64,000 nt of DNA from an uncultured Eubacteriales bacterium (GTDB taxonomy: Bacteria; Bacillota; Clostridia; Peptostreptococcales; Anaerovoracaceae), in NCBI GenBank assembly GCA_900315485.1, contig OMZI01000007.1:25464-89463 (forward strand), in the 5' to 3' direction. A model generated the notes under the pieces. It was given only the letters and a program-made list of their open reading frames with translations. It searched no databases and had not been told where the DNA came from. A program made the position numbers and the translations under genes. This document shows, one piece after another, positions 10,852 through 60,331 of this stretch. Positions within the stretch are counted from its first letter, which is position 1, and each line of letters opens with the position of its first letter.

Positions 10852-12795
10852 TCAGTAGTTTTCCTTGATGAGACCGCTCTTGAATGCATCGAAGAGTGCC
10901 TCAAGGTTTCTTATCTGTTCACGCAGTTCCTCACCTGTGTCGGTGTCTCTGATCAGTATCCTCTCAGCGACTGAGTCGACAAGGTGCATGACAGGTCTGT
11001 GGAACACCTGTGTCCCGTCCTCACGGAGCGGCTCATAAGGCTGATGCTCTGCGAGGTACATGTGCTTGGATGTCATGATAGCAGTATATCCTGCTATGCC
11101 CGTTGTCTTGTGGTATGCCTTGGAGATACCGCCGTCGATTACGAACATCTTGCCGTTGGCCTTGATAGGGCTCTCACCCTTGCTCTGCTTGACAGGCACG
11201 TGTCCGTTCAGGATCCTTCCGATCTTAGGGTTGATTCCGAAGTCCTTGAGGATCTTGTCCGCCATCTCCTCGCTGTCCATATGCTTGTAGTAAGGGACCT
11301 TGTTCTCCTTGTGTGTTGCCTTGTCCTCGATGAAGTACCTCTCGAAGGTCGTCATCTTGTCCTTGCCGAACAGAGGTGAATCCTCGGAGAGCCACAGGAA
11401 CCACATGATGGCTGCCTCTTCAGGTCTGTCCTTCTCAGGGCTGAACCTTGCGGCTCTGATCATCTCGTCAAGCTTCTGGATATATGCGGCGCCTCTGTAT
11501 CTGCCTCCGTCAATCTGCACGGTCTTGAATGTGCCGTTCTCATTGAGCTGCATGCAGCCGTGATAGAGAAGGTTGTTGTTCATGATCTTGTAGAGGCCGC
11601 CGACCTCGAACATATAGTTGATGTGCTTCTGGAGCTTCTCGGAATTGATGATCGAGGACTCGAGAGCGACCATGACTTCTTCTTCCTCCGGAGTCAGCTT
11701 CAGCGGATCCGCAGGGTCGACTGTAGGGAGATTCATATCCCTCATCGGATACTCCTTGCCCTCGATGTTGACTGTTCCCTTATCGAAGTCGATGTTCAGC
11801 AGGAGGTTCCTCTTGTCGAGCTTGTATTCAGGATGCTTGATTATCTCCTGTCCCTCTATCTTGAACTGGATGATCGAGATCATCTTGTGCATCTTGGCTG
11901 CCAGTTCAGGCGGGATAGGGTCATACTTGTTCTGCTCGAGCAGATTAGGCCTGAAGTACTCGCACGGATCGTCTCCGTAGATCTTCTCGGCGAGCGATGC
12001 CAGCGGCCTCAGGTTGAAGCCGTAGCCTACCTCGAGCATGTCAAAGTTGTTGTACCTTACGTTGATACGGATGATGGTCGCGATGCAGGCTCTGTTGCCG
12101 CACGCTGCACCCATCCACAGGACATCGTGGTTGCCCCACTGGATGTCCACGCCGCGGTTGGACATAAGGTAGTCCATGATGACATGGGATTTTGCACCTC
12201 TGTCGAAGATATCTCCGATGATGTGGAGCCTGTCGACTGTGAGGTTGGCGATGGTCTCTGTGAGGTCTGTGATGAACACCTCAGCAGCGCCGTACTCGAT
12301 GAGTGTGTCGATGATCTCATCGTAGTATTTGTGTCTGTCCAGTACATCGTCAGCGAACAGGAGCTCGTCCATGATGTATGACGATGCCTTAGGAAGACGT
12401 TTCTTTACTTTCGATCTTGTGTATTTATTGGAGACTACGCGGCATACTGCGACAAGCCTTCTGATGGCAACTTTGCACCATGCGTCAAAGTCAGGCTCGC
12501 TCTTCTTTCTTCTCTTAAGCTCCGCTTCCGGATTGTAGATAAGAGAGGCGAGCTCATCGCACTCCTTCTCGGTCAGGATGTTGCCGAAGACCTCATCGAT
12601 CCTCATCCTGATCATTCCGGAGCCTGATCTTACGAAATACTGGAAAGCGTCGAACTCTCCGTGCAGGTCACTCAGAAAGAACTCCGTAGCCTTAGGAAGA
12701 GCCAGAATAGCTCTGAGGTTTATGATTTCTGTCCTTGCAGCTCTCGCATTAGGATATTTCTCCGCAAGCAGCTTGAGATACTGGATATCCGGCAT
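10852..12795 (-). CDS. fbp: Fructose-1,6-bisphosphatase, class III
   Basis: This is the Firmicutes-specific class III enzyme of gluconeogenesis, converting fructose-1,6-bisphosphate to fructose-6-phosphate. The 647 residues match the Bacillus Fbp length. Calcineurin-like metal-site motifs are visible: FLSDLHGEFDAF near residue 40, GDIFDRGAKS near 195, QWGNHDVLWMG near 220 and NGHVPVKQSKGE near 530. The ribosome site gtaaggaggtaag is strong. It lies 55 bp after murA and upstream of the glycogen cluster, which fits a flow from gluconeogenesis to glucose-phosphate and glycogen. Confidence 0.96.
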   Translation of the reverse strand: MPDIQYLKLLAEKYPNARAARTEIINLRAILALPKATEFFLSDLHGEFDAFQYFVRSGSGMIRMRIDEVFGNILTEKECDELASLIYNPEAELKRRKKSEPDFDAWCKVAIRRLVAVCRVVSNKYTRSKVKKRLPKASSYIMDELLFADDVLDRHKYYDEIIDTLIEYGAAEVFITDLTETIANLTVDRLHIIGDIFDRGAKSHVIMDYLMSNRGVDIQWGNHDVLWMGAACGNRACIATIIRINVRYNNFDMLEVGYGFNLRPLASLAEKIYGDDPCEYFRPNLLEQNKYDPIPPELAAKMHKMISIIQFKIEGQEIIKHPEYKLDKRNLLLNIDFDKGTVNIEGKEYPMRDMNLPTVDPADPLKLTPEEEEVMVALESSIINSEKLQKHINYMFEVGGLYKIMNNNLLYHGCMQLNENGTFKTVQIDGGRYRGAAYIQKLDEMIRAARFSPEKDRPEEAAIMWFLWLSEDSPLFGKDKMTTFERYFIEDKATHKENKVPYYKHMDSEEMADKILKDFGINPKIGRILNGHVPVKQSKGESPIKANGKMFVIDGGISKAYHKTTGIAGYTAIMTSKHMYLAEHQPYEPLREDGTQVFHRPVMHLVDSVAERILIRDTDTGEELREQIRNLEALFDAFKSGLIKENY

Positions 12796-12850
12796 AGTCT
12801 TACCTCCTTACACAGCGGATCATATCGCAGGCCTGTATGCCAGGGGCTTA

Positions 12851-14125
12851 TCAGTCCTGCTCGATCTTCATTATGTCAGCTCCGAGGCCCTTGAACTTAC
12901 CGACGAAGTTCTCATAGCCTCTCTCTATGTGATATATCTCGCTTATCTCTGTAGTCCCCTTTGCAACAAGTCCCGCGAGCACCATTGCGGCACCGGCTCT
13001 TAAATCCGTAGCTCTGACCTTGGCACCCTTCAGCTTCTTTCCGCCCGGAACTATGGCTTCTCTGTTTTCCGTGGAAATGTCAGCACCCATTCTGTTCAGC
13101 TCGACAACATGCATGAATCTGTTTTCGAAAACTGTCTCCCTGACGATGCTCTGGCCCTTTACGGTGGTCAGGAACGCCATGAACGGTGACTGGATGTCTG
13201 TCGGGAAGCCCGGATAAGGAAGTGTCTTGATGTCCGTGGCAACGAGCTCTCTGTCTCTTGCGTCCACGTAGATGCCTTCAGGCAGTACCTCAACGTCAAC
13301 GTTGCACTCCTTGAGCTTGGCGATTATAGGTCTTACGTGGCCCGGCAGAGCGTTCTTTACAAGAACGTCGCCTCTTGTTATAGCTGCAGCCAGCATGAAT
13401 GTGCCTGTTTCGATCCTGTCCGGGATGACAGCATGGATACAGCCGGAGAGCTTTTCGACTCCCTCGATCCTGATCATGTCTGTTCCGGCGTACTTGATCC
13501 TTGCGCCCATCTTGTTCAGAAGGTTGGCAAGGTCGATGATCTCAGGCTCCTTGGCCGCATTCTCTATGATGGTCGTTCCCTTTGAGAGGGTCGCTGCCAT
13601 CATGATGTTCTCTGTAGCACCTACGCTCGGGAAGTCGAGGTAGATGGCATCCCCTGCGAGTCCGTCCTCAGGAGCGGTGACGATGACTCTTCCGTTATCA
13701 TCATCTTCCACAACGTCAGCGCCGAGTGCCCTGAATCCCTTGAGGTGCAGGTCGATAGGCCTCTTGCCTATAGTGCAGCCTCCCGGCATAGGCATTACGA
13801 CCTTGCCGTGACGGGCAAGCATAGGACCCATAGTAAATACGGAAGCTCTCATCTCCTGGACAAGTTCAGCCTTGCCCTCGCAGCACCTGACTTCCTTCAT
13901 TGCCGCCTTTATGACTCCCTTCTCGCTGTCGTCGATAACAGAGCCGTAATTGGTCAGCATTTCCTTCATTACATTAACGTCAACAAGATCAGGCACGCCC
14001 TCGATGGTGCATGTCTGATCTGTGAGTATCGTAGCGGCAAGCAGCGGAAGGACTGAGTTCTTCGCGCCGCTTATTTCGACCTCTCCGTGAAGAGGTCCGC
14101 TGCTGTTGACAAGTATTTTTGCCAT
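12851..14125 (-). CDS. murA: UDP-N-acetylglucosamine 1-carboxyvinyltransferase
   Basis: MurA transfers enolpyruvate from PEP to UDP-GlcNAc, the first committed step of peptidoglycan synthesis. The 424 residues contain the N-terminal SGAKNSVLPLLAATIL motif and the catalytic loop MPMPGGCTIGKRPIDLH. The loop carries Cys117, the residue modified by fosfomycin in sensitive enzymes. The C-terminus has GAAMVLAGLVAKG. The ribosome site is ggggagataata. It follows the 245-residue Ala/Lys-rich membrane protein gene by 3 bp, so these are cotranscribed. Confidence 0.96.
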   Translation of the reverse strand: MAKILVNSSGPLHGEVEISGAKNSVLPLLAATILTDQTCTIEGVPDLVDVNVMKEMLTNYGSVIDDSEKGVIKAAMKEVRCCEGKAELVQEMRASVFTMGPMLARHGKVVMPMPGGCTIGKRPIDLHLKGFRALGADVVEDDDNGRVIVTAPEDGLAGDAIYLDFPSVGATENIMMAATLSKGTTIIENAAKEPEIIDLANLLNKMGARIKYAGTDMIRIEGVEKLSGCIHAVIPDRIETGTFMLAAAITRGDVLVKNALPGHVRPIIAKLKECNVDVEVLPEGIYVDARDRELVATDIKTLPYPGFPTDIQSPFMAFLTTVKGQSIVRETVFENRFMHVVELNRMGADISTENREAIVPGGKKLKGAKVRATDLRAGAAMVLAGLVAKGTTEISEIYHIERGYENFVGKFKGLGADIMKIEQD

Positions 14126-48278: not shown

Positions 48279-48749
48279 TCAGTCCTCCTCACAGCCTGTG
48301 GTGCTGCTGAAGAAAGGCATCACCAGCGCTCTCGCTTCGGCTATGTTTATACCCTGAGCCTCTGCGATCCCGGCAAGGTCATCATATTCCGCCTTGACCC
48401 TGTCCGTGCCGTATCCTGAGACATGCTTATACCTTACAGTCCCGTATGGGGTCTCCACCGAACCTTCCGTGCGGTCAAGCACACACCGCTCGGATATGAC
48501 CTCCCTTATTCCTATGGTCGTGGTATATCTGAACAGGAGGCGTGCAAAACGCTCTTTCTCCTCTTCGTCGTCAGCGCACATTACAGTGATCATATGCGCA
48601 GGTCTCCCCTTCTTCATGACGATAGGCATTATCTGCACATCCCTGGCACCTGCCTTCATCAGCTGCTCAGCGGCAAAGGCCAGTTCTTCCGGAGTCATGT
48701 CATCTATATTGCATTCGAGCTCGCATACCCTGTCTTTTCTGTCTGCCAT
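48279..48749 (-). CDS. LarC C-terminal domain (LarC2-like), nickel insertion
   Basis: The 156 residues correspond only to the C-terminal half of LarC. LarC is the CTP-dependent nickel insertase that completes the nickel-pincer nucleotide cofactor. Diagnostic segments are LECNIDDMTPEELAFAAEQL and IVMKKGRPAHMITVM, and TTTIGIRE and VETPYGTVRYK follow. In lactobacilli LarC is made from larC1 and larC2 by a programmed frameshift. Here no LarC1 half precedes it, because larE is directly upstream (21 bp). It has its own ribosome site (cggaggacctgat), so it is a genuine stand-alone gene. Confidence 0.85.
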   Translation of the reverse strand: MADRKDRVCELECNIDDMTPEELAFAAEQLMKAGARDVQIMPIVMKKGRPAHMITVMCADDEEEKERFARLLFRYTTTIGIREVISERCVLDRTEGSVETPYGTVRYKHVSGYGTDRVKAEYDDLAGIAEAQGINIAEARALVMPFFSSTTGCEED

Positions 48750-48770: not shown

Positions 48771-49514
48771 CTAACGGGTCTCTTCATCTATTATGACCGA
48801 TCCGTACATATCTCCGATCAGCCTGTCTATCTCATCTTTTCTCTCAAGCGCCATATCATGCTGAGCGGAAGTCACCTGCAGAAGAGCGTTTCCGTCCCTC
48901 AGCCTTACGCGGAAATCCCTGAACCCCATGCCGGAGATCTCAGCCTCAGCCTTCTCGGTCCTCGCAAGGTCCTCTTCCGTGATCTCCTCACCGGTCTGTA
49001 TCCTTGTGGCGAGGCACGCATAGGCAGGCTTGTTCCACACAGGCAGGCCCGCTTCCCTCGACCTCTCTCTTACCTCAGCCTTGGTTATCCCGCACTCTCT
49101 CAGCGGCGACCTTATACCGAACTCCTTAAGAGCTCTCATGCCGGGCCTGTCGTCAGCCGGATCCGAGGCATTCGTACCGTCTATAACAAGGGCAAAACCG
49201 TCATCTGCAGCGGCACGGGTTATCGCGCCCATGATGTTTTTCTTGCACCAGTAACAGCGGTCTGCCGGATTGGCTCTGACGCGCGGATCGGACAGTGCAT
49301 CGACCCTCAGCACCTTCATCTCAGCGCCCGTTAGCTCTGCGATCTTCTTCGCATCCTCAAATTCGAAATCAGGCTGGAACTGCGACTTCACATAATAAGC
49401 CGTTACATCCGCGCCGCACTGCTTCGCTGCATACAGAAGGTATGATGAATCCACACCGCCTGAAAAAGCCACAGCTATTCTGTTATTCTCTTCAAAAAAA
49501 TCTCTAATATCCAT
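48771..49514 (-). CDS. larE: LarE-type ATP-dependent sacrificial sulfur transferase
   Basis: LarE adenylates and thiolates the pyridinium biscarboxylate precursor of the nickel-pincer cofactor, donating its own cysteine sulfur in the sacrificial type. The 247 residues have the PP-loop AVAFSGGVDSSYLLYA (about 14-29). A PADRCYWCKKNIMGAI segment contains the region of the sulfur-donating cysteine. It is cotranscribed with the LarC2-like gene. larB, larC1 and lactate racemase larA are not in the window. The ribosome site is agaggagtatt. Confidence 0.9.
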   Translation of the reverse strand: MDIRDFFEENNRIAVAFSGGVDSSYLLYAAKQCGADVTAYYVKSQFQPDFEFEDAKKIAELTGAEMKVLRVDALSDPRVRANPADRCYWCKKNIMGAITRAAADDGFALVIDGTNASDPADDRPGMRALKEFGIRSPLRECGITKAEVRERSREAGLPVWNKPAYACLATRIQTGEEITEEDLARTEKAEAEISGMGFRDFRVRLRDGNALLQVTSAQHDMALERKDEIDRLIGDMYGSVIIDEETR

Positions 49515-49854: not shown

Positions 49855-49880
49855 AGAAAAGCGGCACTTCCGGGCGCCGC
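49855..49880 (-). terminator. Terminator after the 50 kb operon
   Basis: GCGGC and GCCGC pair around CCCGGAAGT-type sequence on the minus strand, followed by TTTTC. It lies about 35 bp after the small membrane protein gene and is the likely end of the operon starting at 56.8 kb. Confidence 0.7.
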
Positions 49881-49915
49881 CTGTTCCTTTTACCTTATGC
49901 AATTCCTGTAATCTT

Positions 49916-50086
49916 CTACAGATGCTGGTTCCTTGGGATCCTGTCGTACCACTTGAGCAGGAACGGCTCGATCGCTGAGGTCAGCTTCATGTCCAGGTTA
50001 AAGAAATAAACCGTGAATGTAACTACGAAGAATGCAAGTCCTCCGGTCAGAATGTACAGAAGTGCTTTAAGTGCTATCTTTTTCAT
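49916..50086 (-). CDS. Small membrane protein at the end of the 50 kb operon, 56 residues
   Basis: From ATG 50086, 8 bases after ggagg, the protein is MKKIALKALLYILTGGLAFF followed by more hydrophobic residues. This makes one transmembrane helix (about 7-27) plus a 28-residue tail containing FLLKWYDRIPRNQHL. The open frame extends 10 codons upstream without a ribosome site. It follows the dehydratase-like alpha gene by about 37 bp on the same strand, so it is probably cotranscribed. No family is recognised. It could anchor the cytoplasmic complex to the membrane, which is speculation. Confidence 0.65.
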   Translation of the reverse strand: MKKIALKALLYILTGGLAFFVVTFTVYFFNLDMKLTSAIEPFLLKWYDRIPRNQHL

Positions 50087-50123
50087 TATTATGCCTCCGG
50101 TTAATTCAGTCTGCATTTATATT

Positions 50124-51722
50124 TTACCACGAATTCTCGTCGTCGAGTACCTCGAGTGTCGGGTCAAGAGGTTCTTCCTGCATGACTGTTCTCATGTAGC
50201 TGTTGACCTGATCTCTTACTCCCTGTCTTGAAACGACACGAGGGTCGAAGAGCTGGTGATCTACCCAGATCAGAGGAACTCCGAGCTCTCTTGCTCTGTC
50301 CTCGAACATTCCGTGCATGCCATCCAGAGCCTTGCATGTGATGTGCTCCCAGAGGATGATCATGTCTGCGTTGTACTGTTCAACGAACTCGAAGAGGTCG
50401 TCGAGGAGTACCTTGTAACCGCCGTGTGTACGGTTACGCATGATCATCTCTTCAGTCAGCATAGCCATATCGTAGTATGCCTGCTCTCTGTTCTCAGGAG
50501 TATCTGTCTCTGCGATCATCTCTGTGTTGATGCATGAAAGCATGTCTGTCAGAGGAACGATTCCCCAGCAGTTCAGAAGCCATACGAGGAAGTCCATGTA
50601 GTAGTGCGACTGAACGCCCCATACGATCGCTCTGTGGCGGTACTCAGGAGCAGCCATTTTGCGCTTCTTATATGCCTTCTCTGCCAGCTTCATCAGACGT
50701 CTGTCAGCTCTCTCGAATTCTGGAACCTTGCCGCAGATAGCCATGTAGTTGGTCTCTGTGTAAAGAGCGAGGTTTCCGCCGAAGATCTGCGGATAGTCCG
50801 TCTTGTTCATGTCGAGCCACTCGTTACGGCACTTTGTCGCAAAGTTTACTCTCTTAGCGCATTCGAAGTAGTAATCCCAGTCCCACTTGTGGCCTGTGTG
50901 CTCTTCGATGAATGCGATAGCTCTTCTGATTTCCTCTGCAGCGTATTCCTGAACGTCGTCTTCCTTATGACGGAGCGGAGCCGGCAGCTGGAATACAGGA
51001 ATACCGTCTTCCTTCTCGAGTCTCTCAGAGATTACACCGTTGCCGAGGAGTGAACCGTCACATGTGGTGTTGCACTGTACAGCGCACGCACCGAAGATCG
51101 GAGCGTCGTCATCGATCGATACGCCGGCTTCTGCCTCAGGCATCGGGCAGACGTCGCCAGGGAGTCCGTATTCCTGAGCTACATCGATGTAGTGCTCCAT
51201 AGCGTGCTGGTTCAGGAGTACTGATACGTATGTCGAAGGAGTCTCACGGGATGTGCACTTCAGGTTAGGGAATCCCATCATGACTGCTGTCATCTCGTTC
51301 TCATCAACGAGTACGTTGATCTTGGAGAACTCCTCATCGTTACCTGTCCTGCGGTCGGCACGTGCCATGGTGTTAAGAAGCTTCGCAACGTCGATGATGA
51401 TAAGATCCTGCTCCTCGTGGGTCATTCTGAGATATTCGCCTCTGAGGCCCTGAGTGAATCTGTCTACCATCATAGGTACTGCCAGATAGTTAGCCATCCA
51501 ACGGTATCTGAAGAAGAATTTGATGTTGCGAGGCTTGGACATGAATTTGCCGAGTGTGAGCATGATTCCCAGCCATCTGCTGTAATCGTAAAGAGTATCT
51601 CCTACTCCTCTCCACTCACGGCGCTTTCTTACCTTGCCATGTGGCTTATAAAGGTCGCCGTATCTGGTATCACCCTTGATCTTCTCAGGGTTTACCATCT
51701 TGTTGAATTTCTTTACAGCCAT
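50124..51722 (-). CDS. 2-hydroxyacyl-CoA dehydratase-family subunit, alpha-like
   Basis: The 532 residues belong to the HgdA/HgdB-BcrB/BcrC superfamily of [4Fe-4S] proteins. These dehydrate 2-hydroxyacyl-CoA esters or reduce aromatic CoA esters after ATP-driven electron injection. Cysteines available as ligands are in NLKCTSRE (156), GDVCPMPE (192) and GACAVQCNTTCDGS (213, 217, 221). The N-terminal 100 residues are basic and longer than in typical HgdA. The start is ATG 51722, overlapping the stop of the beta-like gene (GTGATG context), 6-7 bases after ggaggagc. The usual activator ATPase (HgdC type) is absent from the window. The substrate is unknown, and a CoA substrate should not be assumed. 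Confidence 0.82.
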   Translation of the reverse strand: MAVKKFNKMVNPEKIKGDTRYGDLYKPHGKVRKRREWRGVGDTLYDYSRWLGIMLTLGKFMSKPRNIKFFFRYRWMANYLAVPMMVDRFTQGLRGEYLRMTHEEQDLIIIDVAKLLNTMARADRRTGNDEEFSKINVLVDENEMTAVMMGFPNLKCTSRETPSTYVSVLLNQHAMEHYIDVAQEYGLPGDVCPMPEAEAGVSIDDDAPIFGACAVQCNTTCDGSLLGNGVISERLEKEDGIPVFQLPAPLRHKEDDVQEYAAEEIRRAIAFIEEHTGHKWDWDYYFECAKRVNFATKCRNEWLDMNKTDYPQIFGGNLALYTETNYMAICGKVPEFERADRRLMKLAEKAYKKRKMAAPEYRHRAIVWGVQSHYYMDFLVWLLNCWGIVPLTDMLSCINTEMIAETDTPENREQAYYDMAMLTEEMIMRNRTHGGYKVLLDDLFEFVEQYNADMIILWEHITCKALDGMHGMFEDRARELGVPLIWVDHQLFDPRVVSRQGVRDQVNSYMRTVMQEEPLDPTLEVLDDENSW

Positions 51723-52918
51723 CACTGCTCCTCCTTCTGAATCTTCTTGATATCGATGCTCTCCATGAACGCCTGTACACGGGTACGCATCTGTCCGGAG
51801 GAGCCGATAGTGTACGGTCTGTCGACTGCCAGAACCGGCCAGTCATATCTGTTCCTGAGGATGTGTGATCCCATCATCTTCTCATAAGCCCATGGGTCAC
51901 AGAACTTCATCTGCTGATAGATGATACCGTCAGCCTTGTATTTCTTAGCCAGCTTGTCAACGTATTCACGTCTTCCGTCCATCTTCTCTGTGTTCATGTA
52001 TCTCGGGCACTCGCCTCTGTACATGTACTGTCTGCAGATCTGAGTCAGAGCGTCCTCATCGTCAGTGAGCTCGATCGGATCTCTGCCAGGCAGTGAGCCG
52101 TAGCAGAATCTGTCAGCACATACGAATGCGCCGCTGTCCTCAATGAGCTTGATAAAGTCTGTGTCATCGACTTCAGATCCTACAACGAGAACTCTTGCCT
52201 TGAACCATGGCTTGTCGTCAGGTTCTCTTGTCTTCAGTTCCTCAAGTGTCTCCTCGAGCTTGTCAACGATGAGATACTTAGGAGCTACATATGAAGCAAG
52301 GCAAAGCACGTTGTACTCATATCCTGTGATCGTAGGGTTATCGAGTTTGCGGAAGTCTCCGATCTGTCTCAGGAGTTCGCAGATGTGATTGTGCTCTGCG
52401 ACTGCCTTGCGGATAGCTTCATCGCTTACATCGATGCCGTACTTCTCAGCCAGCGGCTTGAGTATATGATTTTTACACTGAAGCACATAGAGGTTGAGGC
52501 CGTTGTAGTCAGCCTTCATAGGGATCTCCATATAGTCCCAGAAGAAGTTTTCCTTATCCTTGCCGGCAGCCTTGAGAAGCTCCATGTTCTCAACGCATCT
52601 GTTGAGCATGGTGCATCCGTCAGGTGTTACCATTCCGTCAAGGAAGTTGTATCCTCCCTCAAGAGCTCTCTCAAGGATAGCTCTCGAATATTCGCAGAGG
52701 AAGCTTGTAAGGTAATATGTTCCTACATCTATAGAACCTGTTCTCGGTGCGCGAAGTCTTGCCGAGAAGCATCCCGGCAGATTGAGAAGCGGTTCAGGAA
52801 CGTTTTCGCACATATATCCTATGCACTTCTTCCCTTCCTCCTGAGCCTGTCTGATGAGGTCATTGTGTGCCTCCTGCAGCAGGTCCTCGAAGTATATTAA
52901 ATGTTTAAGGTCTTTCAC
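51722..52918 (-). CDS. 2-hydroxyacyl-CoA dehydratase-family subunit, beta-like
   Basis: The 398 residues start at a GTG (ribosome site aggagggatact). The superfamily pattern is clear: GYMCENVPEPLLNLPGCFSA near residue 34 (cluster and substrate region), DGMVTPDGCTMLNRCVE near 93, and KADGIIYQQMKFCDPWAYEK near 338. These supply the three cysteine positions of the [4Fe-4S] site. It is translationally coupled to the alpha-like gene by a 4 bp overlap, implying a 1:1 heterodimer. Upstream in the operon are two small proteins, a HypA-like protein and an Fe-S flavoprotein that could provide electrons. Confidence 0.86.
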   Translation of the reverse strand: MKDLKHLIYFEDLLQEAHNDLIRQAQEEGKKCIGYMCENVPEPLLNLPGCFSARLRAPRTGSIDVGTYYLTSFLCEYSRAILERALEGGYNFLDGMVTPDGCTMLNRCVENMELLKAAGKDKENFFWDYMEIPMKADYNGLNLYVLQCKNHILKPLAEKYGIDVSDEAIRKAVAEHNHICELLRQIGDFRKLDNPTITGYEYNVLCLASYVAPKYLIVDKLEETLEELKTREPDDKPWFKARVLVVGSEVDDTDFIKLIEDSGAFVCADRFCYGSLPGRDPIELTDDEDALTQICRQYMYRGECPRYMNTEKMDGRREYVDKLAKKYKADGIIYQQMKFCDPWAYEKMMGSHILRNRYDWPVLAVDRPYTIGSSGQMRTRVQAFMESIDIKKIQKEEQ

Positions 52919-52969
52919 AGTATCCCTCCTGTGTTTATCAGTCCTGTCTGTAAAACCAAGCTCAGTGTA

Positions 52970-53185
52970 TTACCACAGCTTAGCCACTACATCAGCAACA
53001 GCCTTGCCCTGCTCGCCGTTCAGCTTGCATCTGAGCTGTCTCTTGACTTCACCGATAAGCAGTTCTTCCGACTTGCCTTCTGCTATTGCAGCAAGGATCA
53101 TCTCTTCTGCTTCTTTGCTGACTTTGCCGTCAGCAGAAATTCCGTTGTAAATACGGAGCTGTTCTTCTTTAGTGAATTCTTTCAT
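52970..53185 (-). CDS. Small acidic/basic helical protein, 71 residues
   Basis: The function is not recognised. The sequence is mixed-charge and probably all helical (KEFTKEEQLRIYNGISADGK, with GEVKRQLRCKLNGEQGKAV near 44-62). It has one Cys and no membrane segment. The ribosome site aagggaggaattatca is strong. It lies 51 bp before the beta-like dehydratase gene, and a stable hairpin separates it from the 63-residue gene upstream. Its position suggests a small subunit or assembly factor of the dehydratase-like complex. Confidence 0.7.
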   Translation of the reverse strand: MKEFTKEEQLRIYNGISADGKVSKEAEEMILAAIAEGKSEELLIGEVKRQLRCKLNGEQGKAVADVVAKLW

Positions 53186-53225
53186 TGATAATTCCTCCCT
53201 TGCCTGTTATTGCATGAAACCGGTT

Positions 53226-53261
53226 CCGCAGCCATGCAGCCTTCTGAGAGCACGGCTGCGG
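53226..53261 (-). other. Intercistronic hairpin within the 50 kb operon
   Basis: CCGCAGCC (53226-53233) and GGCTGCGG (53254-53261) form a perfect 8 bp stem between the 63- and 71-residue genes. No T-run follows, so it is more likely an mRNA processing or stability element that sets unequal expression of the upstream and downstream genes. Confidence 0.55.
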
Positions 53262-53291
53262 TCCCTTAATGAAGAGTTATTTCAAGCAAAA

Positions 53292-53483
53292 CTACTTGCT
53301 GCTTTTCTTGACTTCGGCTTCGAGCACCTTTTCAAGTCTCTCTTTTGCCTTTGCATCGAGAGCCCCGTCGTCACCTGCAAAAAAGGCTTCAAGGTCAGGG
53401 AGTCTGACGCCGGCTTTGTAGTTCATCTTGAACATCTCAACACCGAGTGACTCCTTAATATTTCTCATTTCCTGATTGGTCAT
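53292..53483 (-). CDS. Small helical protein, 63 residues
   Basis: The function is not recognised. It has no cysteine, a central AGVRLPDLEAFFAGDDG, and a charged helical C-terminus (DAKAKERLEKVLEAEVKKSSK without the first residue). The ribosome site acaggaggttcaa is strong. It follows the HypA-like gene by 26 bp. Like the 71-residue protein, it is probably specific to this operon. Confidence 0.7.
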   Translation of the reverse strand: MTNQEMRNIKESLGVEMFKMNYKAGVRLPDLEAFFAGDDGALDAKAKERLEKVLEAEVKKSSK

Positions 53484-53509
53484 TTGAACCTCCTGTATTT
53501 AAGCAGTTA

Positions 53510-53947
53510 TCACTGAGGTCTGTATTCGCCTGATGCTTCAAGCTTCCCTCCGGCCCCGTCTGATGGTTTTGCACCTGAGTCTGCATCAGCCTCCGCATCA
53601 ACATCCTCTACCTCGACTTCCTTGATCATCATCTCATTGCCGCGAAGCAGCCATGTATTGCCGCTTCCGCAGTGAGGACATGTCTTGCCGTACTGTACGG
53701 TGGAATACGTGATCTTGCAGTCATCACACCATGTAACGGCAGGGATCTCTTCAGTCTTCAGTTCAGCGCCCTCAAACATCGGGAATTTCTTGGTATACCA
53801 GAGCCAGTAATCGTGCAGATATGACGTTACTATGCCGGATACTTCCCCGAACTGGAGAGTAACAGAATGTATCTTCTTTACGTTCTGCTCCTCAGCGATC
53901 TTGCTTACCTGTTCAACTACATAATTAACAAGTCCTAATTCGTGCAT
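53510..53947 (-). CDS. HypA/HybF-like nickel metallochaperone
   Basis: The 145 residues begin MHELGLVNYVVEQV, with the conserved N-terminal His-Glu of the HypA nickel site. They contain the zinc site as two CxxC pairs (WCDDCK and CPHCGS, about residues 73-98). HypA delivers nickel to [NiFe] hydrogenase or urease maturation. No hydrogenase, urease or hypB lies in this window. An extra acidic C-terminal tail (about 108-145, VEVEDVDAEADADSGAK) is not usual. It starts 18 bp after the flavoprotein stop. It may have been recruited to metal delivery for this operon's enzyme, or may be a domain-level homologue used as an Fe-S or redox partner. Confidence 0.85.
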   Translation of the reverse strand: MHELGLVNYVVEQVSKIAEEQNVKKIHSVTLQFGEVSGIVTSYLHDYWLWYTKKFPMFEGAELKTEEIPAVTWCDDCKITYSTVQYGKTCPHCGSGNTWLLRGNEMMIKEVEVEDVDAEADADSGAKPSDGAGGKLEASGEYRPQ

Positions 53948-53965
53948 ATGCTTAAAATGTCCTTA

Positions 53966-56749
53966 TTACTTGCCAGCTACTTTCTTCTTGATGATGCCTG
54001 CTACACGGCTCGGGATATGCTTGCCCATTCCGAGGAACTTCTGCTCTGCAGGGATCATGTTGGAGTACTTGTCTCCGTCAGGCAGACGGAACAGATGGAT
54101 AGCATCGAACTTGCACTGTACAGTACACATACCGCAGCCGATACACTTGTTGGTATCTACTACGCTGCGTCCGCACTTGAGGCATCTCTCTGCTTCCTTC
54201 TTGATCTGCTCTTCGCTGAACTGCCTGATTTCGTAATCCATTGTGAGCTTCTTGCTCTCGTCGATCTCTCTGATCTGGCGAGGAGGTCTCTTGAAGTCTG
54301 CAGGTGGGATAACGATGTCATCCTTGTCGAGCATTGCGAACTGACGTGTATTCCTGTGGATCATCAGATGCTGACCCTTATTGACGAATCTGTGCAGTGA
54401 TACTGCGCCTTCACGGCCCATTGCGAGAGCGTCAACCACGAACTTCTGTCCGCTTACGCTGTCTCCGCCTGCAAAGATGTCAGGCTCTGCAGTCTGCAGT
54501 GTAGCAGGGTCTGCGATGATCATGCCTCTCGGGCTGAACTCTACCTTGGTTCCCTCGAACAGTGTGCCGTAGTCAGGCTTCTGACCGATGCTGAAGAGAA
54601 CTGTTGAGCATGCCTGCTCTGTTGTCTCATTGTCATCGAACTTAGGATCGAATCTTCCGTCAGCGTTCTTGACCTGTGTGCACTTATGGAACTTGATGCC
54701 TGCAACCTTGCCGTCCTTTGTAACGACTTCTGTCTGACCCCATCCGTCATGGATCACGATGCCCTCGTTCTCGAGGAATTCCTGATCCTCAGCGCCCATC
54801 GGCATCTCATCATATGATTCGAGGCAGTACAGGTGTACGTTCTTGGCGCCCTGTCTGATAGCTGTTCTTGCTACGTCAGCTCCGATGTTTCCGCCGCCGA
54901 TGACTACTACATCGCCGGAGAGCTTCTTTGCTTTGCCCAGAGTCACGCTCTTGACATAGTCAACACCGCCGATAACTCCTTCAGCGTCATCGCCCGGGAT
55001 TCCGAGTCTTCCGCATGCCTGGAGACCTGTTCCTACGAAGAAGCCCTTGAAGCCTTCTTCTCTCAGGGACTGGAATGTTACGTCCTTGCCGACCTCTACG
55101 CCGCATCTGATCTCAACGCCCATCTCCTTGAGGATGTCGATCTCAGCATTGACGACCTTCTTGTCGAGTCTGAAGTTAGGAATGCCGAGTGTCATCATTC
55201 CGCCAGGCATCTCCTGCTTTTCGAATACTACAGGCTTGTAGCCCTCGATAGCGAGGAAGTATGCGCAGGAAAGTCCTGCAGGACCGGATCCGATGATACC
55301 GATCTTCTGGTCGAAGTGCTCTCTTGTTGTGGATACCATTGGCGGGATGTACTTGTGATCATCCTCAAGATCCTTGGCTGCGATGAATGCCTTGATGTCA
55401 TCGATAGCAAGAGCCTCATCAACGGTTCCTCTTGTACATTCAAGCTCGCAGTACTTGTGGCAGATAGCTCCGCATACTGCAGGGAACGGGTTGTCTCTCT
55501 TGATCAGCTCGAGAGCCTGTCTGTATTCGCCTCTGCTTGCCATGTCGATGTAGCCCTGGATAGCGATGTGGAGCGGGCATGCAGACTTACAAGGTGCAGT
55601 ACCTGTAGGCCATGTCTGGATGACACCGTTCTCATTCTTGTAGTTCCAGTTCCACTTGTCCTCAGGCCAGAAGTTGCTGTCAGGCAGCTCCTGCTTAGGA
55701 TATTCAACCGGTCCGCTCTTGGTGCACAGTTTCTGTCCGAGTCTGACAGCACCTGCAGGGCAGACCTCAACGCACTTGCCGCATGCAACGCACTTCTCAG
55801 GATCTACCTCTGAACGGTATGGAGAAGCGGACATGTTAGGTGTGTTGAAGAGCTGTGATGTACGGAGAGCGTTGCAGACACCTACAGCGCAGTTACAGAT
55901 AGCGAAGATCTTGTTCTTTCCGTCGATATTTGTAACCTGATGTACATAGCCCTTTTCTTCAGCCTTTTCGAGGACTTCGATCGCTTCTTCATAAGTGATG
56001 TCATAGCCCATGCCTGTCTCACGGCAGTAGTCAGCGAAATCACCGAGTCCCATGCACCAGTACTGTGCGATGTCTCCGGAGCCCTCGCCTCTGATCGTCT
56101 GCTGCTTACGGCAGGAGCAGATTCCGAGTCCGATCTGTCCCTCATACTTCTTGAGCCAGTATGAAATGTGTTCGATGTCGAGCGACTCGCTCTCTGCAGG
56201 GATAGCCTTCTCTACAGGGATTACGTGCATTCCGATTCCGGATCCGCCAGGAGCTACCATCTGGGTGATACCTGCGAGCGGCAGATAAGTCATTCTTTCG
56301 AAGAAGTCTGCGATCTCAGGTGTCTCAGGGGAGATCTGGTCTCTCATTACCATGATCTCGGCACTTCCAGGTACGTACTGGTCAAGGACCCATCTTCTCT
56401 CATGATTAGGATTCTTGCCGTCAAGGTTCTCGTTGTGGAACTCTACAAGGCCATACTGGCATGCAGCCTCGAGGACTGTCTCCAGACGGGCATCGTCAAG
56501 TCCGCTCATCTTCTTAAGATCTGCGAAGAATCTAGGCTTACGCTTGCCCATCTTCAGGCAGACATCGAGAACATCTTCAGCAATGTCTTTGCCGTATCTT
56601 CTTACGACATACTGGTAACCGCAGTCCATGCCCCAGTACTCAGGAGAATCCTTGGAAGGCTTCTCGAGTCCGAGGAGGATTTCCTTGCGGTCGGTGATGA
56701 TCTTTATAAGCTTAAAGATCTTCTCATCGTGTGTCAGTGTTTTTGCCAT
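53966..56749 (-). CDS. Multi-cluster Fe-S flavoprotein, GltD-like FAD/NAD(P) oxidoreductase
   Basis: This 927-residue electron-transfer protein has four parts. Residues 1-140 look like a winged-helix-type domain. Residues 205-295 hold a cysteine-rich segment (GICSCRK, YWCMG, AICNCAVGVCNAL). Residues 320-331 form a ferredoxin motif (CVACGKCVEVCPAG). Residues 387-800 are a glutamate-synthase small-subunit-like core with Fe-S ligands CKSACPLH and CGAICHKYCELECTRG, an FAD site GIIGSGPAGLSCAY and an NAD(P) site VVIGGGNIGADVARTA. Two further clusters lie at 856-879 (CLKCGR, CIGCGMCTVQC). It should pass electrons from NAD(P)H, possibly by bifurcation, to the dehydratase-like subunits encoded downstream. 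It is first in the operon, after a promoter with a palindromic operator. The ribosome site is ggagaggtgg. Confidence 0.85.
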   Translation of the reverse strand: MAKTLTHDEKIFKLIKIITDRKEILLGLEKPSKDSPEYWGMDCGYQYVVRRYGKDIAEDVLDVCLKMGKRKPRFFADLKKMSGLDDARLETVLEAACQYGLVEFHNENLDGKNPNHERRWVLDQYVPGSAEIMVMRDQISPETPEIADFFERMTYLPLAGITQMVAPGGSGIGMHVIPVEKAIPAESESLDIEHISYWLKKYEGQIGLGICSCRKQQTIRGEGSGDIAQYWCMGLGDFADYCRETGMGYDITYEEAIEVLEKAEEKGYVHQVTNIDGKNKIFAICNCAVGVCNALRTSQLFNTPNMSASPYRSEVDPEKCVACGKCVEVCPAGAVRLGQKLCTKSGPVEYPKQELPDSNFWPEDKWNWNYKNENGVIQTWPTGTAPCKSACPLHIAIQGYIDMASRGEYRQALELIKRDNPFPAVCGAICHKYCELECTRGTVDEALAIDDIKAFIAAKDLEDDHKYIPPMVSTTREHFDQKIGIIGSGPAGLSCAYFLAIEGYKPVVFEKQEMPGGMMTLGIPNFRLDKKVVNAEIDILKEMGVEIRCGVEVGKDVTFQSLREEGFKGFFVGTGLQACGRLGIPGDDAEGVIGGVDYVKSVTLGKAKKLSGDVVVIGGGNIGADVARTAIRQGAKNVHLYCLESYDEMPMGAEDQEFLENEGIVIHDGWGQTEVVTKDGKVAGIKFHKCTQVKNADGRFDPKFDDNETTEQACSTVLFSIGQKPDYGTLFEGTKVEFSPRGMIIADPATLQTAEPDIFAGGDSVSGQKFVVDALAMGREGAVSLHRFVNKGQHLMIHRNTRQFAMLDKDDIVIPPADFKRPPRQIREIDESKKLTMDYEIRQFSEEQIKKEAERCLKCGRSVVDTNKCIGCGMCTVQCKFDAIHLFRLPDGDKYSNMIPAEQKFLGMGKHIPSRVAGIIKKKVAGK

Positions 56750-56836
56750 ATACTAACCACCTCTCCATTAAACATTTCAATATCTTCAATATTTGATTCC
56801 GCGCGGCCATGCGCACTTCCTCATACTATTGACAGA

Positions 56837-56866
56837 ATTTTATCATGACCAATTGGTAACTTTCAA
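56837..56866 (-). promoter_or_regulatory. Promoter and palindromic operator of the flavoprotein/dehydratase-like operon
   Basis: TTGAAA (56861-56866) and TAAAAT (56837-56842) are 18 bp apart on the minus strand. Centred in the spacer is the perfect palindrome ACCAATTGGT (56848-56857), extended imperfectly to TGACCAATTGGTAA. Occupancy there would block RNA polymerase, so a TetR- or MarR-type repressor is likely. No regulator gene is adjacent. Confidence 0.7.
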
Positions 56867-57205: not shown

Positions 57206-57261
57206 TTGACCCATACCCTGCGGGGGTATATAATCGCATTGCCGGATACCCCACGAGGGTA
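57206..57261 (+). promoter_or_regulatory. csoR-copA promoter with two CsoR-type operators
   Basis: TTGACC (57206-57211) and TATAAT (57229-57234) are 17 bp apart. The spacer holds TACCCTGCGGGGGTA (57214-57228). A second palindrome, TACCCCACGAGGGTA (57247-57261), lies just after the transcription start, 33 bp centre to centre, about three helical turns. TACCC-N5-GGGTA is the known style of CsoR sites, so copper relieves repression by the regulator encoded next. Confidence 0.88.
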
Positions 57262-57397
57262 TACCGATGTTCACAATGTGGCGCCGCATCCACAGCATGA
57301 CCACCGTCCTGTTCTGTTCACGGATGCCGGTTACTGCAGCCACAAAAATGTCTTTTCATTAGGCAGAGAACCGCATAACCAGATAATGGAGTTATAT

Positions 57398-57709
57398 ATG
57401 GCAGAGAAGAAAGAATGCTGCGCGTGCAGCGAGAAGAAAAAAGAACGCAGTCCTGAAGAGTACAAGGATCTGATCAACAGGCTGAGCCGCATAGAGGGAC
57501 AGGTCCGCGGCATCAAGACCATGGTCGAGAAAGGCGCATACTGCCCTGACATCCTCATCCAGACATCGGCAGTAAACGCGGCTCTCAACAGTTTCAGCAA
57601 GGTGCTCCTGTCCAACCACATCCGCACCTGCGTCAGGAATGACATACGCGAAGGCAATGATGAGGTCGTCGAAGAGCTCGTCACCACCCTTCAGAAGATG
57701 ATGAAATAA
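57398..57709 (+). CDS. csoR: CsoR-family copper-sensing repressor
   Basis: From ATG 57398, six bases after ggag, the protein has 103 residues. An upstream frame extension lies across the promoter and is rejected. The four-helix DUF156 fold is evident (NRLSRIEGQVRGIKTMVE). The Cu(I)-binding triad is Cys49 (AYCPD), His74 and Cys78 (SNHIRTC), the C-H-C pattern of copper sensors and not that of nickel or formaldehyde sensors. Two extra cysteine groups near the N-terminus (ECCAC) are unusual. copA follows after 27 bp. Confidence 0.92.
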   Translation: MAEKKECCACSEKKKERSPEEYKDLINRLSRIEGQVRGIKTMVEKGAYCPDILIQTSAVNAALNSFSKVLLSNHIRTCVRNDIREGNDEVVEELVTTLQKMMK

Positions 57710-57736
57710 ACCTGTTGCATTTAAGAGGTAAACAGA

Positions 57737-60331
<2,595 letters not shown>

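Follow-up and report, generated by a model that had tools for sequence, protein, structure and literature searches.

The closest described counterparts of the system treated here are the benzoyl-CoA reductase BzdNO with its activator BzdPQ, the double-cubane proteins DCCP/DCCP-R, and the dehydratase HadBC with its activator HadI; two putative partner proteins resemble acetyl-CoA synthase (CdhC/AcsB) and CooC1, the nickel ATPase of carbon monoxide dehydrogenase (CODH) maturation. The system was found in a stretch of 64,000 nucleotides from an uncultured Eubacteriales bacterium (contig OMZI01000007.1 of assembly GCA_900315485.1, positions 25,464 to 89,463; hereafter the window), where an operon of seven genes encodes two HGD-D proteins (HGDb and HGDa), a small membrane protein (TM66), an Fe-S flavoprotein, a HypA-like protein and two further small proteins. 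PMC11971306 names BzdN C36, C73, C100, C263, C293 and C327 as ligands of the [8Fe-9S] double-cubane cluster, places His131 beside Cys128 in the BzdO active site, and reports both double-cubane clusters as lost in the dehydratases; PMC6006190 describes Cys112 and Cys114 of CooC1 as holding a metal between two monomers.

As set out below, the HGD-D pair of the window probably forms a membrane-tethered, activator-driven double-cubane reductase of the BzdNO type, which would draw on a shared activator set acting in trans and be supported by a flavoprotein-HypA module. The seven open reading frames (ORFs) run on the minus strand from 56749 to 49916, with gaps, from the flavoprotein gene to the membrane gene, of 18, 26, 106, 51, -4 and 7 bp. 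All were found as described in an earlier note on this DNA, the seventh (50116-49916) lying just beyond 50124-56866, the interval which that note had assigned to the operon:

53966-56749, minus strand: Fe-S flavoprotein of 927 amino acids (aa), with an N-terminal part of about 300 aa without Pfam family, Fer4, Fer4_20, a GltD/NfnL-type FAD/NAD(P) module and a C-terminal Fer4-like motif
53510-53947, minus strand: HypA-like nickel metallochaperone, 145 aa, starting MHEL (PF01155, E 2.6e-31)
53292-53483, minus strand: 63-aa protein, no significant family match
52970-53185, minus strand: 71-aa protein, no significant family match
51722-52918, minus strand: HGDb, BzdN-like subunit, 398 aa (HGD-D, PF06050, E 1.1e-87)
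50124-51725, minus strand: HGDa, BzdO/HadB-like subunit with N-terminal extension, 533 aa (HGD-D, PF06050, E 1.4e-35)
49916-50116, minus strand: TM66, 66 aa, with one strongly hydrophobic stretch and a conserved C-terminal tail

The two HGD-D proteins score 295 and 124 bits against PF06050 (gathering cut-off 28.4), which bears out their earlier placement in the 2-hydroxyacyl-CoA dehydratase/benzoyl-CoA reductase superfamily. HGDb C37, C75, C102, C272, C304 and C340 align one to one with the six double-cubane ligands of BzdN, and none of these cysteines varies among the 23 sequences aligned. Equally invariant (23/23) are C193, C222 and C464 of HGDa, together with C386; judged from match ranges and spacing, the first three would correspond by position to BzdO Cys95, Cys128 and Cys380, and they are placed as putative [4Fe-4S] ligands of the O-type subunit. 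A structure model of HGDa (mean predicted local distance difference test, pLDDT, 83) returned 20 PDB fold matches at E<=0.001, every one of them a BzdNO, HadBC, Mbd or DCCP chain.

The window's system thus resembles BzdNO with BzdPQ in its two HGD-D subunits, the six [8Fe-9S] ligand positions of its N-type subunit and the family of its activator. It differs in its low sequence identity, in the single activator gene that stands beside the pair in relatives, in the membrane helix protein and the CooC-like and acetyl-CoA-synthase-like partners, and in a serine, present in 23 of 23 HGDa sequences, at the position of BzdO His131 (three after Cys128). Because of this serine, the chemistry would not be plain benzoyl-CoA reduction; from the BzdNO-like layout we predict that HGDab is an ATP-activated reductase with different acid-base chemistry, and not a dehydratase. 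With DCCP/DCCP-R the pair has a double-cubane subunit in common, the NCBIfam double-cubane model NF040772 being the best-scoring one for HGDb, yet at 135.3 bits it remains below the equivalog cut-off of 350; unlike DCCP/DCCP-R, the window encodes a heterodimer with one predicted double-cubane subunit and extra operon partners.

Conservation of the operon was surveyed in the best 80 of 182 related loci (L037-L116). A TM66-type membrane gene stands downstream of HGDa in 72 of the 74 loci with at least 600 bp on that side, HGDb ends at most 100 bp before the start of HGDa in 63 of the 70 loci with room, and an HGDb match is found somewhere in 77 of all 80; in the other three, HGDa begins at locus position 1 to 86. 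The stable unit is therefore HGDb-HGDa-small membrane protein. Where at least 6 kb was available on both sides (38 loci), a flavoprotein gene on the same strand was present within 5 kb in nine, HypA in seven and HypB in two. The seven-gene set of the window is one arrangement among several: the expected conservation of flavoprotein, HypA-like and dehydratase-like genes as a unit is mixed, being strong for HGDb-HGDa-TM66 and extending to the flavoprotein and HypA in a minority of loci. The nearest loci are titled uncultured Clostridia/Clostridiales and Mogibacterium sp.; among all 80 titles, 18 name Butyrivibrio and 14 Mogibacterium, and many name ruminant or other gut samples.

A related arrangement includes an activator gene. 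It is a six-gene core operon in the order CooC-like, HGDb, HGDa, BcrAD/HgdC-type activator, small membrane protein, CdhC-like, found entire in eight loci (L111, L112, L115, L118, L142, L144, L146 and L148), one of which belongs to the genome of the window:

L118:4261-10259, another contig of the own genome: core operon with the genes for the CooC-like protein, HGDb, HGDa, activator, membrane protein and CdhC-like protein

The core HGDa is 77-78% identical to that of the window in L111, L112 and L115, and 35-50% identical in the other five loci. An activator gene lies directly 3' of window-type HGDa (75-78% identical) in 6 of the 80 loci (L088, L099, L105, L111, L112, L115) and near it in two more (L080, L109); in L112, flavoprotein and HypA genes follow the core on the same strand. 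The activator of the own genome shares 78% identity with its counterpart in L112, and this genome holds six BcrAD/BadFG matches, five above the cut-off and two of these in one ORF. A BcrAD/HgdC-type activator is thus both linked to the window's type of HGDa and present in its genome. The earlier observation that no activator stands beside the pair is true locally, while activator-family matches and a paralogous core operon exist elsewhere in the same genome. This is one part of what the note had named as refuting its proposal, the others being a CoA-transferase, co-regulation and a known 2-hydroxyacyl-CoA substrate. Its reading that electrons come from the flavoprotein and not from an ATP-dependent activator is not supported, because core operons, including that of the own genome, carry a BcrAD/HgdC-type activator.

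The other two core proteins have recognizable relatives. A profile of ten CooC-like sequences matched CooC1 (3kje) with E 1.2e-19 (next best 1.2e-9) and over nearly the whole length, and a C-Y-C motif found in 11 of 11 CooC-like sequences aligns with CooC1 Cys112 and Cys114. The CdhC-like protein matches PF03598 (E 1.2e-9) in the middle domain of acetyl-CoA synthase only, and its profile matches PDB 3git (E 7.5e-8) over residues 24-177. An AlphaFold2 model of the L112 protein (pLDDT 85) yielded 22 PDB matches at E<=0.001, all of them acetyl-CoA synthases; alignment of hidden Markov models of the CdhC-like family and four synthases again covered the middle domain only, at a low probability (26.9%, E 0.00068), so that the assignment to this domain is based on the matches by Pfam, PDB sequence and fold. 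The family ends in D-C-x2-C-x5-C, invariant in 12 of 12 sequences, with pLDDT of about 44-62 in the corresponding region of the model (C213/C216/C222); these three cysteines might be the counterparts of the first A-cluster cysteines of the synthase. Unlike acetyl-CoA synthase, it has no remainder of the A-cluster domain; the later cysteines seen in the synthases of genomes G228 and G330 are absent, including those of the C-G-C motif, which we take to be nickel ligands. A working acetyl-CoA synthase was rejected, since the A-cluster domain is incomplete and the protein ends soon after the middle domain. Near the core, sigma-54 activators and aldehyde ferredoxin oxidoreductases are encoded in L142 and L144, and an alcohol dehydrogenase in L144; in L148 the core is followed by a protein of the NADH:flavin-oxidoreductase family. 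These neighbors are hints on the substrate only; those of L142 and L144 would point to one linked to alcohols or aldehydes in these loci.

Genome searches with HGDa (E<=1e-40) and with the CdhC-like protein (E<=1e-10) single out one and the same set of 6 among 291 genomes of the class, in four families. Within the genus, 33 of 36 genomes have HGDa at E<=1e-40; 29 of these 33 also have a CdhC-like match, one as a 54-residue fragment, and the three genomes without HGDa are also without it. The own genome (2.52 Mb in 59 contigs, 85.6% complete) carries four HGDa-type genes at E<=1e-40, one of them in the window and the other three on contig C21.

From these data we propose the following mechanism. 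HGDa and HGDb would form a heterodimeric low-potential reductase of the BzdNO type, held at the membrane by TM66. Electrons would be stored in a double-cubane [8Fe-9S] cluster of HGDb; in HGDa, a [4Fe-4S] cluster with an open site is the predicted place of substrate reduction. The BcrAD/HgdC-type activator would deliver these electrons with ATP hydrolysis, acting in trans from the core operon on C21, and this one set (activator, C-x-C CooC-like ATPase and protein with the acetyl-CoA synthase middle domain) may serve all four of the genome's HGD pairs. As for the flavoprotein-HypA module, its most likely task is to use NAD(P)H to supply or regenerate electrons of low potential, while HypA would contribute to metal supply.

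The nature of this module was evaluated separately. In the flavoprotein, Pfam recognizes Fer4 in two stretches and a single Fer4_20 domain; the closest matches of the GltD-type half are chains annotated as molybdopterin oxidoreductase/formate dehydrogenase, NfnA and NfnI alpha. The Fe-S domains and the GltD/NfnL-type FAD/NAD(P) module agree with the NAD(P)-linked Fe-S flavoprotein predicted earlier as the first gene product, and the PF01155 match likewise with the HypA-like second one, which is above the Pfam cut-off and, at 74.4 bits, below the equivalog cut-off of 88.1 of NCBIfam TIGR00100. The HypA proteins examined keep the H-E of the MHE start, presumably the nickel-binding start of HypA. 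Flavoprotein genes were examined in 20 of 37 places: 17 have HypA and HypB beside the flavoprotein and three have neither, and no HGD gene was detected in any of the 20 stretches. The flavoprotein-HypA pair is hence a module separate from the HGD unit. Flavoprotein genes occur at three places of the own genome: in the window and on C32, both with HypA, and on C45, where the gene stands alone. The modules without HGD genes (L180-L184, L186-L192 and L195-L199) are spread across Clostridia; a membrane protein follows flavoprotein-HypA-HypB in L187 (DUF5692) and, by eye, in L195 and L198, and in L189:8686-12212 (G228) a glycyl radical enzyme and a probable activating enzyme (by eye) do so. In the 28 genus genomes with window-type HGDa in which it was compared, the best flavoprotein match is 55-100% identical; it shares contig and strand with HGDa in 16, being adjacent in seven and 9-25 kb away in nine, and is on a different contig in the other 12. 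The link between flavoprotein and HGD pair is real but loose.

This distribution bears on two rival explanations. The flavoprotein and HypA could be chance neighbors: a nickel-linked redox module in its own right, which normally includes HypB, would have moved next to the HGD pair without taking any part in its reaction. The 17 of 20 modules without HGD genes fit this, as does the congener locus L039, where the HGD unit has copper-type ATPase genes next to it, as in the window, with no flavoprotein or HypA between. Against it stand the 16 of 28 genus genomes in which flavoprotein and HGDa lie on one contig and strand, adjacent in seven of them, and the adjacency in a different gene order elsewhere (e.g. 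L112, L115, L068, L116), so that we consider chance neighborhood somewhat unlikely. Alternatively, as the earlier note had it, the flavoprotein would feed low-potential electrons directly into an NAD(P)H-driven complex, perhaps by bifurcation and with no ATP-dependent activator. The close same-strand packing in the window, the relatives of the GltD-type half and the recurrence of adjacency to the HGD pair in several lineages all speak for such a complex, but the activator found directly after window-type HGDa in 6 of 80 loci and also in the own genome, the low number of wide loci (9 of 38) that have a flavoprotein gene inside 5 kb, and the HGD-free HypA-HypB modules make it improbable. A locally complete complex lacking an activator was set aside when activators were found in the own genome.

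Two further alternatives concern the reaction itself. An ordinary 2-hydroxyacyl-CoA dehydratase of amino-acid fermentation, with activator and CoA-transferase encoded elsewhere, would accord with membership of the HGD-D family and with the six activator-family matches of the genome, two of which are near other HGD-D proteins (L119, L120). Fold, heterodimer and activator family are shared with HadBC and HadI. HGDb, however, keeps six double-cubane ligands, whereas the dehydratase subunit HadC has cysteine at four of these six positions in the same kind of alignment, a count that depends on the alignment, HadC having cysteines three residues either side of the first aligned position. The NCBIfam HadB/HadC equivalog cut-offs were not reached (HGDb 93.6 of 700 bits, HGDa 25.2 of 750 bits), and to our knowledge neither a conserved membrane helix or membrane protein nor CooC- and acetyl-CoA-synthase-like partners are features of HadBC or other known dehydratases. 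We regard an ordinary dehydratase as very improbable. The substrate could also be a lipid or fatty acyl chain, e.g. an unsaturated fatty acid in the gut, which is compatible with the proposed reductase and, if true, would account for both the membrane tether and the rumen bias. TM66 in 72 of 74 loci and the gut samples, Butyrivibrio (18/80) and Mogibacterium (14/80) among the locus titles favor such a substrate. So does a 1442-aa activase-family protein of the own genome with BcrAD and DUF2229 domains (L121:5577-9905), which we presume to resemble PlsA and which may be a PlsA-type plasmalogen synthase. According to PMC9702350, plasmalogens are formed from acyl lipids by PlsA/PlsR reductases. 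Conversely, no conserved lipid genes were seen beside the HGD unit in the loci whose neighbors were inspected, two genomes from the genus of the Butyrivibrio genome G264, namely G084 and G225, gave no HGDa match at E<=1e-40, and the literature search found nothing joining biohydrogenation, Butyrivibrio and this type of dehydratase. We give a lipid substrate little probability, and a role in biohydrogenation would be a guess.

Several observations weigh against the activator-driven reductase that we prefer. In the enzyme itself these are the serine at the His131 position, the subthreshold NF040772 score of HGDb and the alignment-dependent cysteine count of HadC. For the shared set, the operon of the window contains no activator, CooC-like or CdhC-like gene, and its pair would have to use those of the other contig; each of these three genes occurs within 5 kb in 2 of the 38 widely covered loci; and the best NCBIfam models for the CooC-like ATPase are MinD models, all below their cut-offs. 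Four of the 33 HGDa-bearing genus genomes (G002, G009, G010 and G026, three of them less than 90% complete) have no CdhC-like match, and the co-occurrence thresholds were chosen by the analyst in genomes that, being related, are not independent draws. The sample of the best 80 of 182 loci is taxonomically clumped. Finally, most HGD pairs lie at a distance from the flavoprotein gene, and a search with the first 380 residues of the flavoprotein gave matches in 29 of the 291 class genomes, compared with 6 of 291 for HGDa; in these six HGDa genomes, the flavoprotein match is strong in G000, G228 and G264, weaker in G330, marginal in G246 and absent in G065.

The HypA- and CooC-like proteins raise the question of their nickel clients. 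CODH-family proteins (PF03063) had no match in 8 of 10 genomes searched, among them the own genome (85.6% complete) and four congeners, and matched in G228 and G330; in this the system differs from that of CooC1. For [NiFe]-hydrogenase (PF00374), neither the own genome (85.6% complete) nor any of the four congeners (94-97% complete) gave a match, urease not being part of the search; the match in 1 of the 10 genomes, G264, is 70 residues long. Full-length acetyl-CoA synthases above the family cut-off were present in two of six genomes searched, again G228 and G330. HypA serving a [NiFe]-hydrogenase and CooC serving a CODH were each set aside for want of an own-genome match, which at 85.6% completeness is not proof of absence. 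A more far-reaching version of the proposal is that the system is a nickel-dependent, membrane-bound double-cubane reductase in which the CooC-like ATPase, together with HypA and, in genomes that have it, HypB, inserts nickel into the truncated acetyl-CoA-synthase-like protein, with its invariant C-x2-C-x5-C, or into HGDab, and in which one shared activator-ATPase-synthase-like core serves several HGD pairs with different substrates. We put this forward tentatively, as a rather unlikely extension.

The flanks of the operon contain the following features:

56837-56866, minus strand: promoter-like site (10 of 12 match) with a 10-bp palindrome, 56848-56857, in its spacer
49859-49882, minus strand: terminator-like hairpin
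48771-49514, minus strand: LarE, separated from the operon by 401 bp and a terminator-like hairpin
48279-48749, minus strand: LarC2, beyond the same 401 bp and hairpin

A promoter-like site and a terminator-like hairpin are thus present as noted earlier, but promoter-like matches in the region do not exceed expectation (7, compared with 8.7, sd 2.8, in shuffles); terminator-like matches number 12 (shuffles 5.7, sd 2.7). The perfect palindrome likewise exists and is weak evidence, because the window has 76 perfect palindromes of 10 bp; its role as an operator was set aside for this reason. LarE and LarC2, genes of the nickel-pincer cofactor 401 bp downstream, probably belong to a separate transcript. 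LarE is also found downstream of the HGD unit in L037 and L072, and in the congener L039 a radical SAM protein (12036-13106; HydE-like by eye) follows the HGD unit at the place of LarE in the window. On the other side, a CsoR-like regulator and a copper-type P-ATPase (57206-60331, by eye) are divergent from the operon, and in L039 the HGD unit is flanked by this pair as well. The 63-aa protein, which by eye looks like a small helix-turn-helix protein, occurs in nine records (the window among them), all of which also hold flavoprotein and HypA; the 71-aa protein occurs in seven, again counting the window.

The literature search found no description combining these elements, most subscription papers being outside its scope, and the system is a variant within the HGD-D superfamily whose accessory set was not found described in the literature searched. 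This conserved system of gut bacteria brings together a subunit predicted to hold a double cubane, a tether to the membrane, an ATPase of the CooC type and a protein derived from acetyl-CoA synthase, and it does so in genomes that gave no CODH or [NiFe]-hydrogenase match. Should the nickel reading be true, it would represent a class of nickel enzymes outside CODH, acetyl-CoA synthase, hydrogenase and urease. Two questions become testable: which low-potential reductions are carried out in these bacteria, and what role nickel-type maturation proteins play there.

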